Positions 25,384 to 29,004 of a stretch of DNA of 64,000 nucleotides are shown piece after piece. The notes beneath the pieces are model-generated. The model was not told the origin of the DNA and did not search any database. It was given only the letters and a program-made list of their open reading frames with translations. Each line of letters opens with the position of its first letter. Position 1 is the first letter of the stretch. This DNA comes from Clostridiales bacterium Firm_13 (GTDB lineage: Bacteria > Bacillota > Clostridia > Saccharofermentanales > Saccharofermentanaceae), in the NCBI GenBank assembly GCA_001603035.1, contig LVAS01000002.1, forward strand, positions 1 to 64,000, read 5' to 3'. The position numbers and the translations under genes were made by a program.

Positions 25384-25599
25384 TTGATTAACTTAGGGAA
25401 ATTCGAGAATGCGGGCAAGGTGAAAATAGTGACACCTGATGGCTAAGTCTTCGTCGGAAAAGCGGGAGAAGCGACAATGAAGGAGGACGAAGAAGAACTC
25501 GAACTTGACGAACCTTCTGATTGGCTTACGCTTTGGATCAATGGGCAACCCCTCTCTTTTCGACCAGAGGACATACTATCAATCGAAAAAATCGATTGA
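25384..25599 (+). pseudogene. LSM/Sm-like small protein with an internal TAA (module 3)
   Basis: From TTG 25384 (behind GAGGTGG) the frame reads INLGKFENAGKVKIVTPDG, then TAA at 25444-25446, then VFVGKAGEATMKEDEEELE and ending FRPEDILSIEKID. Apart from the stop this matches the shape of small LSM-like proteins of Firmicutes (VKIVTKDGKVFEG ... SIE). A CAA to TAA change would explain the stop (DGQVF). An internal ATG at 25477 could still make the last 40 residues. Such proteins are often found as partners next to toxin-like genes, which fits the module pattern. Confidence 0.6.
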
Positions 25600-25624
25600 G
25601 CCGCACGATCAAAGACTGCAAATC

Positions 25625-25664
25625 AAGCACTCTCACCCGAGGGTGCTCTTTTATGCCCGGAAAA
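25625..25664 (+). repeat. Cassette-boundary repeat R3 (also a terminator hairpin)
   Basis: Bases 25625-25647 are identical to 24588-24610 of R1 and fold the same way; TCTTTTATGCCCGGAAAAG follows. It lies 25 bases after the LSM-like pseudogene and is the third boundary in the series. Confidence 0.8.
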
Positions 25665-25763
25665 GAAGAGAAGCAAAGATTAAAACAAGATAATCCGCCG
25701 AGAAGAGATCCCAGAAGTAACGAGAGACGGCTCCAACGGGGCGAGGGAGCACAGACTGGATAG
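25653..25763 (+). other. Short basic ORF after repeat R3
   Basis: 36 codons: MPGKEEKQRLKQDNPPRRD, Arg-rich, ending at TAG 25761-25763. It begins inside R3 in the same way as MPEK in R1. It may be the stub of a fourth module or not be translated at all; no Shine-Dalgarno precedes it. The 154 bases from here to the next gene contain only its promoter. Confidence 0.3.
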
Positions 25764-25863
25764 TAATTTTGAAAAGTCCACCAGCTCGCTGCCAAGTAGT
25801 AACGACGCTTCTACACGTGTCCGATTTCTTCTTCCTCGAAATCATTTCTGTTTTGAGCCGCTA

Positions 25864-25872
25864 TGTTATAAT
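25864..25872 (+). promoter_or_regulatory. Extended -10 promoter of the zinc-ribbon membrane protein gene
   Basis: TGTTATAAT at 25864-25872 (TGn plus perfect TATAAT); no clear -35. It marks the return to normal host-like sequence. Confidence 0.5.
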
Positions 25873-25917
25873 GAATTTGTATTACGAGTTACTTGAGACA
25901 TAGGGGGAGGAACTGAT

Positions 25918-26613
25918 ATGATCTGTCCGAATTGTCGCAAAGAAGTTCCCGAAGGCAGTGCTTTTTGCTTTTCCTGCGGGACCAAGATGGATGTTACCGA
26001 CGCGTCGACTGCCTCTGCCTCCGAAGCGATTCTGTCGGAGCCGGAGCAAATTGACGTTTTCGCGGGTCCGACGTTGACCGAATCGTCGCCGTTTGTTACG
26101 TCGCCTCAGAAGAGTGAGGATGACGTTATCGAAGGAATTGCGCCGGCGCAAGAATTGGGATCTTCCGCCAAAGAGGTCACGGAGTCCGGCGTCGAATCGA
26201 GTATTCCGACTGCGCCCTCCGCTGCTATCCCTGCCGCGCCTGCTGCCGCCGGACCGGTTGGAACGCCCGTAATTCCCGTGCAGACGGTTAAGACGTCGGT
26301 TCCTCCGACGCCTCCTGTCGTTCTCCCGAAGAGTGCGCGCCCGATTACGACGGGAGGAACTTTCTGGTTCTTCTTTGTCACCTGTATCCCTCTGGTCGGG
26401 CTGATTGTTTTATTGGCGGTCGGTTTCGGCAGCAAAAACAAGAGCAGAAGAAGTGTGGCGCGTGCGATTCTAATCTATCAGATTCTGGCTGTACTTCTGA
26501 TCTGTCTCGCGTTTGTCGTTCTCTTCTTCGGGAATCGCTTGTTGCTGGAGCGACTCTTTGATCCGGATAGCTGGAGACAAATCGGGCAGGCGGTCACCGC
26601 GGCTTTCTCCTAA
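25918..26613 (+). CDS. Zinc-ribbon protein with two C-terminal membrane segments
   Basis: 231 residues. N-terminal double CxxC (CPNCRKEVPEGSAFCFSCG) forms a zinc ribbon. Residues ~30-135 are a Ser/Pro/Ala/Glu-rich flexible linker. Two hydrophobic helices follow (about 143-166 and 180-204), separated by the basic GFGSKNKSRRS. GGGGGAGGA places the ATG. Many Bacillota encode such zinc_ribbon_2/DUF4870-like membrane proteins of unknown function; I cannot be more exact. Confidence 0.8.
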   Translation: MICPNCRKEVPEGSAFCFSCGTKMDVTDASTASASEAILSEPEQIDVFAGPTLTESSPFVTSPQKSEDDVIEGIAPAQELGSSAKEVTESGVESSIPTAPSAAIPAAPAAAGPVGTPVIPVQTVKTSVPPTPPVVLPKSARPITTGGTFWFFFVTCIPLVGLIVLLAVGFGSKNKSRRSVARAILIYQILAVLLICLAFVVLFFGNRLLLERLFDPDSWRQIGQAVTAAFS

Positions 26614-26668
26614 TTCCGCTTTTTGTCCCTAAGCGGCAAGAAATCTGCTATATTTGCGTTTTTCTGCT

Positions 26669-26681
26669 GTAACATTGTTAC
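26669..26681. promoter_or_regulatory. Perfect palindrome upstream of the DUF4004 gene
   Basis: GTAACATTGTTAC: six-base arms around one T, lying just before a TAAAAT (26684-26689) that could be a -10. A MerR-type HTH gene follows, so an autoregulatory operator is possible. Confidence 0.35.
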
Positions 26682-26691
26682 GTTAAAATCA

Positions 26692-26732
26692 AGCTGTAGC
26701 GACTGCGAGAAGTAGTCGCGCAGCTTTTTTTT
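26692..26732 (+). terminator. Terminator immediately upstream of the DUF4004 gene
   Basis: AGCTG (26692-26696) pairs with CAGCT (26721-26725) and GCGACT (26699-26704) with AGTCGC (26714-26719), then T8 at 26725-26732. Only 12 bases separate the T-run from the ATG at 26745, and these include the Shine-Dalgarno GAGGTG. It either ends the upstream gene or acts as an attenuator. Confidence 0.82.
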
Positions 26733-26744
26733 CGAGGTGACGGC

Positions 26745-27374
26745 ATGCCGGAAGATGAACTGATTTCAAAGCGTGAATTACTACGCACAGCCCGAATATC
26801 CTACGGAACGCTTTACCGATGGAAGCGGATGAATCTCATCCCGGAATCCTGGTTCATTCACAAGTCGACGCATACGGGACAAGAGACCTTTTTCCCGCGG
26901 GAAAGGATGCTTGCCCGTGTCGGTCGCATTCAGGAGCTGAAGGGGGAACTCACGCCGCAACAACTGAGTGAGATTTTCTCTCCGAATGTGAAGAGTTTTC
27001 GAATTCCGCTCGAGGACTTTGTCCGTTTGCAACTTGTCGCCAAATTGTCTGTGACGGCCTTTTCGTCGGTATTTCCGAGTAAGAAGGAACTTTGTTTTGA
27101 TGACGTTTTCTCGATGTATGTCGTCGATCATTTGATGCGGCTTTCGGGTATTTATCTCGAAGACGCGAAGCAAGTGATCCGCATGCTGGATCGATATCTT
27201 GCATCCCGCGGCAGTAAAGAGTTTCAGTTGATATTGATGCGCAAAATGGGCATTCCCTTCACACTTCTCGTTCGCGGAGAGGACGAGATTCTTCTCGAAG
27301 AGAATACCGAGATTGTCGCCTGTGCGAATCTTTCAGAATTTGAAGAGGCCCTGAAAGACCGACTGATCGCATAA
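26745..27374 (+). CDS. DUF4004 (YhbD-like) MerR-type helix-turn-helix protein
   Basis: 209 residues. It opens with LISKRELLRTARISYGTLYRWKRM, a MerR-like winged HTH, and LIPESWFIHKSTHTGQETFFP matches the YhbD/DUF4004 family. The rest is helical with no known cofactor site. The family is uncharacterised, thought to be regulatory. It is followed after 23 bases by an ArsR gene, and its own expression may be controlled by the terminator in front of it. Confidence 0.82.
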   Translation: MPEDELISKRELLRTARISYGTLYRWKRMNLIPESWFIHKSTHTGQETFFPRERMLARVGRIQELKGELTPQQLSEIFSPNVKSFRIPLEDFVRLQLVAKLSVTAFSSVFPSKKELCFDDVFSMYVVDHLMRLSGIYLEDAKQVIRMLDRYLASRGSKEFQLILMRKMGIPFTLLVRGEDEILLEENTEIVACANLSEFEEALKDRLIA

Positions 27375-27397
27375 GCCGACAAGAGAAGGAGGCTTTG

Positions 27398-27898
27398 ATG
27401 AAGGAGACTGCTAAGAAGAAGGACAAACAGCTGGTCAGAGAGAAAGCCTACGAAATTCTTCATCTCCTTTCGGATCCGCATCGAATGAGAATTCTCCGTA
27501 CGTTGTCGGAGAACGGAGAATTGTGCGCGAAAGACATTCTTGTTCACTTCCCGATAACCCAGCCGACACTCTCGCATCATATGAGCGTTCTTCAAAAGAC
27601 AGGCCTGGTCGCCGCAAAGAAATGTGGGCGTCAGGTCTTTTATCGTATTTCTCCCGAAGGGCTTGACCTTCTGATACAGTTCTTCTCCGAGATTCGGGAA
27701 GAAGGCCTTCGGACAGACCTGATCTCAGCGACGGATTCTCCGCGATCCATCGTAAAACCATCGCCGGTTCCTTCAACTGAAACCGAGAAGGAGAACGAGG
27801 ATCCCGAGGTCGCCTCAGAGCTTTCGCATACGAAGAAAAAGACGAAAGCGGAGAAAGAGCATAAGAAAAAGAAAAAAGATAAGAAGAAGAAAAAATAG
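27398..27898 (+). CDS. ArsR-family transcriptional regulator with Lys-rich tail
   Basis: 166 residues from ATG 27398 with AGAAGGAGG. The winged-helix domain covers residues ~10-95 (LSDPHRMRILRTLSENGELC, ITQPTLSHHMSVLQKTGLV, GRQVFYRISPEG). The usual metal-sensing CVCD box reads LCAKD, so metal sensing is doubtful. From about residue 115 the protein is low-complexity and ends in a run of Lys (KKKTKAEKEHKKKKKDKKKK). No target operon is obvious beside it; DUF4004 lies upstream and perR downstream. Confidence 0.88.
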   Translation: MKETAKKKDKQLVREKAYEILHLLSDPHRMRILRTLSENGELCAKDILVHFPITQPTLSHHMSVLQKTGLVAAKKCGRQVFYRISPEGLDLLIQFFSEIREEGLRTDLISATDSPRSIVKPSPVPSTETEKENEDPEVASELSHTKKKTKAEKEHKKKKKDKKKKK

Positions 27899-27920
27899 TT
27901 CAGAAAACCCTTCGCAAAAA

Positions 27921-27957
27921 TTGACTTTTCAATTCGTAAGGATTATTATGATGTAAA
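27921..27957 (+). promoter_or_regulatory. perR promoter with overlapping PerR-like box
   Basis: TTGACT (27921-27926), 17-base spacer, TATTAT (27944-27949). Bases 27943-27957 (TTATTATGATGTAAA) match 11 of 15 positions of the Bacillus PerR box TTATAATnATTATAA, and overlap the -10. This suggests autoregulation by peroxide. Confidence 0.6.
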
Positions 27958-27983
27958 GATTACAACATGGATGGTGAATCAAT

Positions 27984-28406
27984 TTGGCACGTCAAGATCT
28001 TGTCGATACCATTATTCGTAAATTCTCCGAGAGGGAGATCCGATTGACGCCTCAGCGAATCGGAGTCTACCGCTATCTTCTTGAGAATCGCACACATCCA
28101 ACCGTAGAAACGGTTTATCAGGCACTTAAGGCCGACAGCCCCTCTTTATCCAAGACGACGATCTATAACACGGTTGATACGTTAACCGACGCCGGTTTGA
28201 TACGCGTGATTCGTGTCGGCGAAGGAGAAGCTCGCTTGGATGGCGAGATTATTGATCACGGCCATTTCTTTTGTAGAGTGTGCGGCAATGTCTATGACTT
28301 TGATCTGGACAATTGTCATCTGCCCCAGTCCTTGCCGGGATTTCGCATGGAAGGGTTTGATGTCCATGTTGCCGGAGTTTGCGCCGCTTGTGCCGAGAAG
28401 GACTAA
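27984..28406 (+). CDS. perR: Fur-family peroxide regulator PerR
   Basis: 140 residues from TTG 27984 (no ATG fits in frame; GGTGA precedes). HTH: RLTPQRIGVYRYL and SKTTIYNTVDTL. The regulatory metal site of PerR can be traced: His of THPTVETVY, Asp of ARLDG, the pair in DHGHFFCRVC and Asp of NVYDFD. Structural zinc is held by CRVC and CAAC. Having Asp at the D104 position supports PerR over Fur or Zur. It is followed by rubrerythrin and desulfoferrodoxin, the usual PerR targets in anaerobes. Confidence 0.9.
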   Translation: MARQDLVDTIIRKFSEREIRLTPQRIGVYRYLLENRTHPTVETVYQALKADSPSLSKTTIYNTVDTLTDAGLIRVIRVGEGEARLDGEIIDHGHFFCRVCGNVYDFDLDNCHLPQSLPGFRMEGFDVHVAGVCAACAEKD

Positions 28407-28421
28407 TTTCCATAGTCGCCC

Positions 28422-28438
28422 GAATGCCTATGGCATTC
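28422..28438. promoter_or_regulatory. Inverted repeat upstream of rubrerythrin
   Basis: GAATGCC-TAT-GGCATTC, perfect seven-base arms, between perR and the rubrerythrin start. It has no T-run, so it is not a terminator; an operator or an RNA-stabilising stem is possible. Confidence 0.4.
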
Positions 28439-28464
28439 CTATATAAAAAACGGAGGATAATTAC

Positions 28465-29004
28465 ATGGAATTGAAGGGAACAAAAACGGAGAAGAACCTA
28501 AATGCCGCTTTTGCCGGAGAATCGATGGCTACGAACAAATACAGCTATTACGCTTCTCAGGCAAAGAAAGAAGGGTATGTTCAGATTTCCAATATCTTTA
28601 CCGAGACGAGCGGAAATGAGAGAGAGCATGCCAAGCTCTGGTTTAAGGCGCTCCACGGCGGCGAAGTGGCAGAGACTTCCGCCAATCTTCTTGACGCCGC
28701 CGCCGGTGAAAACTACGAGTGGACCGAGATGTATAAGCAGTTCGCCGCCGACGCCCGCGAAGAAGGCTTTAACCAGTTAGCGGCCGCTTTTGAAGGCGTA
28801 GCCGCGATTGAGAAGGAGCATGAGGCTCGTTACAGAGCGCTCGCGGAACGTATCGAAAAGGGTGAAGTATTCGAACGTGACGGGATCGTCGTCTGGAAAT
28901 GCATCAACTGTGGTCATATCCACATCGGCACCAAGGCGCCTCAACTCTGTCCGGTTTGCAAACACGCGCAATCTTATTTTGAACTTCAGTCCAAGAATTA
29001 CTGA
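28465..29004 (+). CDS. rbr: Rubrerythrin
   Basis: 179 residues. The N-terminal four-helix diiron domain has the Glu/His ligands ([48 protein letters not shown]). The C-terminal rubredoxin domain binds iron through CINCGH and CPVCKH. It is an NADH-peroxidase-type enzyme detoxifying H2O2 in anaerobes. Strong CGGAGG site. Immediately after perR and before the superoxide reductase gene. Confidence 0.97.

Follow-up and report, generated by a model that had tools for sequence, protein, structure and literature searches.

Background

At tufB-secE in Salmonella, an operon's terminator and the promoter of the operon that follows share overlapping DNA, an arrangement that, according to the accessible part of the report, affects both expression and fitness (PMC7055797). 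A second paper is, in its accessible part, unrelated to this kind of terminator-promoter layout (PMC12596718). In Bacillus subtilis, the available portion of one study describes yhbD-yhbE-yhbF (bactofilin) as a putative operon (PMC4627819), and the ram sites bound by RacA are described, in the available text, as dense near the origin and also spread elsewhere (PMC6593407). The matS site is given, in the part of the source at hand, as GTGACRNYGTCAC (PMC6907758).

Our literature searches found no paper naming DUF4004, none on yhbD together with MerR, and none relevant to the palindrome described below. A search with the DUF4004 profile, PF13171, returned a match in B. subtilis, which served as a control, and we take yhbD to be the gene in question. 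Self-regulated promoters of the MerR family combine a MerR-type helix-turn-helix (HTH) fold with a palindromic operator in the regulator's own promoter, and classical MerR activators operate on promoters with a spacer of 19-20 bp.

Here, we report a computational analysis of the region upstream of a DUF4004 gene in the window, that is, the whole 64,000-nucleotide stretch that was analysed (contig LVAS01000002.1 of Clostridiales bacterium Firm_13). We consider it likely that the DUF4004 gene has an autoregulated promoter superimposed on the terminator of its upstream neighbor. The locus resembles tufB-secE, to the extent that the accessible part of that report describes it, in the overlap of terminator and promoter between adjacent operons, and differs in that the putative operator of a self-regulator lies within the overlap; because the tufB-secE overlap has already been described in that part of the report, the DUF4004 arrangement is not new in kind (PMC7055797). 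It is an unusual arrangement of known parts. Of greater interest than the promoter is that copies of its probable operator are scattered along the chromosomes of a single bacterial family.

The assembly to which the window belongs (G000) comprises 1.68 Mb in 67 contigs and is 81% complete. Its named relatives are clostridial genomes, mostly MAGs, including Saccharofermentans and Mageeibacillus.

Layout of the locus

The DUF4004 gene occupies positions 26745..27374, with its ATG at 26745; all features given here between 25918 and 27898 lie on the forward strand. An earlier note on this DNA had assigned the gene to DUF4004, an assignment borne out by a match to PF13171 (E 1.9e-60), and structure matches place a MerR-type HTH at the N-terminus of the protein. 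Upstream lies a co-directional zinc-ribbon gene (25918..26613; PF13240, E 1.1e-6), whose product appears by eye to be a membrane protein; a co-directional neighbor is also found 5' of DUF4004 in loci L091, L092 and L093. Downstream, the order of genes is ArsR-like, PerR-like, rubrerythrin and desulfoferrodoxin. The first of these, a conserved neighbor within the family, encodes an ArsR/SmtB-type winged-helix protein with a poly-lysine tail (27398..27898; NF033788, E 2.5e-24); the PerR-like gene (27921-28406), with a profile score below the cut-off of the model, is associated with a promoter-like TTGACT-17-TATTAT.

Direct reading of the window sequence confirmed that a hairpin, a T8 tract, a Shine-Dalgarno sequence, the ATG and a palindrome are all present as previously described. 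The palindrome, GTAACATTGTTAC (26669..26681), is a 13-mer that is symmetric except for its central base. Between it and the hairpin (26691..26726) lies a −10 hexamer, TAAAAT (26684..26689), which the earlier note had overlooked. The T8 tract (26725..26732) is separated from the ATG by twelve bases (26733-26744) that hold the Shine-Dalgarno sequence GAGGTG (26734..26739) and are too short to accommodate a promoter, in agreement with the previous reading. Its corollary holds as well: the start of transcription has to be 5' of the T-tract, and polymerase has to cross the tract. The −35 position, at a spacing of 17 bp, is taken by TTTCTG (26661..26666), an uncertain element that matches poorly in the window and is not clearly defined in the family. 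A promoter scan of 25500-28500 returned six promoter-like sites, none of them at 26661-26689, and a search against Rfam at gathering thresholds yielded four tRNAs as the only hits in the window, with neither a leader RNA nor a riboswitch at this locus.

The placement of a hairpin so close to a start codon is uncommon but not unique. In a survey by script of 162 gene starts from the window and a genome sample, the starts being those of mechanically called open reading frames (ORFs), a terminator-like structure was found at most 200 nt upstream of 18 and at most 25 nt upstream of seven. Four of these seven, DUF4004 included, follow a co-directional gene; the sample holds 108 such pairs.

Conservation of the palindrome and the −10 hexamer

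In the family of the window, we compared 50 distinct promoters, the larger count of 63 loci being one that contains near-duplicates. In these promoters, a half-site GTAAC (GTCAC in one row and GTAAT in two) is followed at a fixed distance by the −10, and the hexamer is TAAAAT, TACAAT, TAGAAT or TACACT at the same register in all 50; the script that located the operator favored this register, which is also visible by eye in the rows.

The same combination extends far beyond the family. Of 398 genomes sampled across the phylum, 20 carry DUF4004, G000 included. The distant set comprises 20 loci (22 minus the window itself and one for which the script found no intact ORF). The sequence AACANTGTT is present upstream of DUF4004 in 20/20 of these loci and GTAACANTGTT(A/T) in 17/20. 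A T(A/G)NNNT hexamer occupies the register of the window in 19/20; for two of the 19, the script printed a second copy of the palindrome, and the first copy is in register by eye. Inspection of several distant promoters revealed TTTACA or TTGACA 17 bp 5' of the −10, and several read TTTACA-17-TACACT, with the palindrome occupying the spacer.

Conservation of the protein is concentrated in its putative DNA-binding part. Between the window and 20 distant proteins, mean identity is 71% over HTH residues 5-53 and only 21% over residues 67-209. The AlphaFold model (mean pLDDT 73) is of good quality chiefly over the HTH, and its N-terminus matches MerR-family HTHs, among them those of NmlR, CadR, SoxR, GlnR and RacA. 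MerR-family chains lead both structure lists, with Z up to 8.0 over 69-94 residues and Foldseek E values of 0.08 or worse; these matches, with moderate scores, support a MerR fold but do not point to a function. No PDB sequence matched the DUF4004 profile, and no sensor domain was recognized in the protein. Because the palindrome is common to DUF4004 promoters across the phylum and the HTH is conserved far above the rest of the protein, the palindrome is most likely the operator of DUF4004 itself. DUF4004 gains a candidate operator that is open to direct testing.

Could another protein be the binder? The ArsR-like poly-lysine protein, rather than DUF4004, might bind both the palindrome and the dispersed copies described below, and it is the usual product of the next gene in the very family that has dispersed sites. 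Among 65 family rows, duplicates included, 55 have a next ORF whose 40 C-terminal residues include at least 14 lysines, an ArsR-like motif is present in 52 of the 55, and the other ten rows have no called ORF at this place; the poly-lysine tail suggests a general affinity for DNA. We nevertheless regard this assignment as unlikely: distant DUF4004 genes share the operator, yet there the next gene is, by eye, mostly bactofilin-like and not ArsR, and it is the HTH of DUF4004 that is far better conserved than the remainder of that protein. In having a bactofilin-like next gene, most distant DUF4004 loci resemble yhbD-yhbE-yhbF, as presented in the available portion of that study (PMC4627819), from which the window differs by its ArsR-like poly-lysine neighbor. 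A side observation concerns locus L094 (G001:C141), where a second DUF4004 gene, with GTAACAATGTTTTGTTAC upstream, lies beside a bactofilin-like gene and coexists with a family-type copy.

The hairpin and a predicted start within it

Folding of 26690-26733 gave −23.4 kcal/mol (z −5.6), a value that none of 200 shuffles equaled. The stem pairs 26691-26697 with 26720-26726 and 26699-26706 with 26712-26719, and the GC-rich hairpin, with a U-tract immediately 3' of it, has the layout of an intrinsic terminator, which we propose stops read-through from the upstream zinc-ribbon gene. Transcription by sigma-A polymerase starts 6-9 nt after the −10, a distance that here predicts a start at 26695..26698, with 26696 as the best candidate, within the hairpin's 5' arm; the lower stem is mostly 5' of this point. 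With such a start, the DUF4004 gene's own RNA would be without the full terminator. In RNA from 26696, eight stem pairs are left, ending 5 nt before the U-tract, and the truncated hairpin has a centroid energy of −14 and a minimum free energy (MFE) of −16.3 kcal/mol (z −1.2).

This difference recurs across the family. A simple terminator finder missed bulged hairpins, that of the window included, and folding energy therefore served as the criterion for counting them. By that count, 29 of the 50 family promoters have a hairpin, with energies of −17 to −27 kcal/mol for the read-through RNA versus −8 to −16 kcal/mol for the own RNA, and the drop is about 9-11 kcal/mol in each. The hairpin is absent from the other 21, in which operator and −10 are kept; wherever the genus could be assigned (12/21), these belong to genus g2. 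A separate upstream terminator was found in 12 of the 21 promoters without a hairpin, two of the 12 being weak, as against one of the 29 with a hairpin, where it lies inside the upstream coding sequence; Fisher's test gave p 2.5e-5, which is indicative only, given related sequences and the two weak cases. In distant DUF4004 promoters, leaders are short, and no such hairpin is apparent by eye.

Pair counts, made on 19 of the 28 distinct hairpins, showed 95.8% of cells paired. Three pairs have changes on both sides, and seven compensatory cells lie in the upper part of the stem, a number reached by 3/500 shuffles. Covariation support for the hairpin appears modest to weak, as five of the ten stem pairs are invariant and 116/500 shuffles also reach three pairs.

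Computation showed the palindrome, the fixed register of the −10, the hairpin, the conservation and the folding energies; from these, we infer the start site, binding by DUF4004, repression and a difference in termination. The DUF4004 protein would bind GTAACATTGTTAC, beside the −10, through its MerR-type HTH and would most likely repress its own transcription. Repression appears likelier than activation of the MerR type because distant DUF4004 promoters with a clear −35 have, by eye, a spacer of 17 bp, unlike the longer one of classical MerR activators. Polymerase would start at about 26696, in the 5' arm. Transcripts from the upstream gene would contain the whole stem, flush to the U-tract, and would terminate; transcripts of the gene itself, with most of the lower stem missing and an 8-bp hairpin at some distance from the U-tract, would mostly continue into the gene, and the residual hairpin and U-tract may terminate some of them. 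A promoter inside a terminator would provide compact insulation of a self-regulated gene from its neighbor without silencing the gene.

Attenuation or antitermination, as put forward in the earlier note, would instead involve a start farther upstream, for example at the extended −10-like TGCTATATT (26646-26654), from which a leader with the whole hairpin could be made, and a factor or an alternative fold that gates passage through the terminator. This is compatible with a T-tract that has to be crossed, with the presence of that −10-like sequence in the window upstream of the palindrome, and with a TGC(C/T)A element that co-occurs with the hairpin. The comparison of relatives, however, makes it quite unlikely. 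TANNNT occurs 14-26 bases 5' of the operator in only 2/29 hairpin promoters (row L041 does not extend far enough for a call), and at the position of the window only in the window, as against 50/50 for the downstream −10. In 21/50 promoters, the hairpin is missing and operator, −10 and regulator are all retained, so the terminator is not the part that is kept; the MFE fold of the long leader retains the terminator, with no competing pairing in the MFE folds; and in 22/28 distinct hairpin sequences, the T-tract is, by eye, interrupted. Of what had been said about the palindrome, its membership in the control region stands, and it behaves as a DNA operator rather than as an attenuation element; the proposed attenuation is not the preferred reading, as the conserved −10 predicts a start within the 5' arm of the hairpin. 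The earlier note had itself named a mapped start inside the terminator as evidence against attenuation; a start at such a place is predicted here from the −10.

That the hairpin serves as a 5' stabilizer or pausing signal of the gene's own mRNA, and not as the terminator of the upstream gene, is very unlikely: the upper stem does stay in the own transcripts and shows some compensatory changes (the three pairs and seven cells noted above), but the invariant lower stem lies largely 5' of the predicted start and could not form in the own RNA, and promoters that lack the hairpin often have a separate upstream terminator.

The TGC(C/T)A element, located at 26640-26660, was detected in 21-23 of the 29 hairpin promoters versus 0-1 of the 21 others, depending on the pattern; with TGC(C/T)A(T/C)A, the counts are 22/29 and 1/21. 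In 6/29 hairpin promoters, the element takes the form of an inverted repeat, GGCAAG...(C/T)TGC(C/T).

Dispersed copies of the palindrome

The sequence GTAACANTGTTAC occurs at 253 sites in 34/34 genomes of the family, compared with 2 for the reversed control, and nowhere in three sister families represented by 24 genomes, where the control gave 2 hits, both from a single genome. DUF4004 itself is present in 33/34 family genomes and in 0/24 sister-family genomes, a contrast that is one split between families and not many independent cases. A search of the 21 distant DUF4004 genomes for GTAACANTGTTAY returned 28 rows, against 37 for the control; by position, 13 of the 28 are the DUF4004 promoter. 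Exact GTAACANTGTTAC was found in these genomes at only one place. G059 encodes a shorter relative that bears the HTH (L074), and there is one exact site in this genome, in the L074 promoter. Given the absence from the sister families and the single exact site in the distant DUF4004 genomes, dispersal over the chromosome is, judged by these motif counts, specific to the family of the window. In this family, which also has the new ArsR-like neighbor, copies of the operator seem to have become distributed along the chromosome.

We read 123 sites individually, from 18 of the 34 family genomes. Their flanks favor TTT...AAA, with T before or A after the core at 173/246 half-sites. By shared neighbors and position, with a tolerance of 36-90 nt, 65 of the 123 fall into 23 groups, one of which holds two sites of a single genome, and 58 are singletons. 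A site lies upstream of gyrB in nine genomes, which represent four genera; in four genomes of g1, g4 and g5, a site follows parB at a distance of 13-114 nt; and in g1, g4 and g5, a site that starts at nucleotide 604 lies inside murT (gyrB and murT were named by eye).

In three murT pairs, third-position identity is 33-43%, yet all twelve fixed positions of the site are identical, and the central residue changes (T or N). Identical 13-nt windows make up 0.1-1.1% in the murT pairs and 2-10% in six other gene pairs; the nine pairs compared are biased in that both copies carry the site. These comparisons point to selection acting on DNA. The dispersed copies have the appearance of a local operator that has extended to chromosomal sites under DNA-level selection.

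Two other accounts of the dispersed sites were considered. An ordinary regulon is rejected as the main reading, since TANNNT stands in promoter register at only 4/123 sites (either strand counted, one of the four being a DUF4004 promoter) and 56/123 sites are intragenic, counting ORFs of 180 codons or more. A mobile repeat is not favored because base preferences, in 63 sites, fade within ~10 bases of the core.

The origin region

With at most one mismatch, GTAACATTGTTAC occurs at seven places in G000, five of them on contig C30, which carries parB, parA, gyrB, recF, dnaN and dnaA (dnaA and ParB were identified by search, the others by eye). The five copies, in G000:C30:1-21883 (L103, L104), are 3.3-4.4 kb apart, with a last gap of 7.8 kb, and run through parB-parA-gyrB-recF-dnaN-dnaA-murT; three parS sites (G000:C30:3836, 3988 and 4062) lie between the first two.

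In six genomes of g1, g4 and g5, 15 of 26 sites are on dnaA/parB contigs versus 0.55 expected, for a nominal p of 5e-19 that is too small, as inspection of the contigs followed the sighting of a first cluster, the genomes are related and G011, with no dnaA or ParB hit, was left out. In g3 (five genomes), the count of 4/43 sites on dnaA/ParB contigs is marginal (p 0.04), and in g2 (nine genomes), where our own tally is 2/77, clustering is not seen. Origin clustering as a general rule is accordingly rejected, being strong in g1, g4 and g5, marginal in g3 and not seen in g2.

The dispersed sites share with matS, as given in the part of that source at hand, a 13-bp palindrome of the same layout (PMC6907758). 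The window palindrome is nevertheless not a matS site, as it carries A at position 3 and T at position 11, which differ from matS by definition of the motif search. Like parS, the sites include palindromes in the origin region, but they are not of the TGTTTCACGTGAAACA type, and canonical parS occurs apart from them on the origin contigs of G000 and further genomes. A further likeness is to RacA, which has, in the available text, HTH-bound sites that are partly origin-dense (PMC6593407) and whose DNA-binding domain is a structural match to the DUF4004 model (Z 5.5); the likeness comes from the structure match and not from sequence, and the clustering at the origin is limited to three of five genera.

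Together, the motif data hint at a second role of DUF4004 in handling DNA. Tentatively, and with more doubt than confidence, we suggest that DUF4004 has turned into a chromosome-organizing protein in this family, binding the family-specific palindrome TTTGTAACANTGTTACAAA at 2-12 places, including the parB-parA-gyrB-dnaA-murT array in some genera, with the ArsR-type protein, whose poly-lysine tail would coat DNA, as a partner; the palindrome at 26669 would then be both the operator and one such site, and DUF4004 elsewhere would be a local self-regulator beside bactofilin genes. This would be a possible route from a transcription factor to a nucleoid or origin protein.

Two further observations concern g2. 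A ParB match is present in 12/12 genomes of this genus, and canonical parS (at most one mismatch) is missing in 11/12. Instead, two copies of TGTTCCACGTGGAACA were found in each of four g2 origin regions (L189, L191-L192, L193 and L200).
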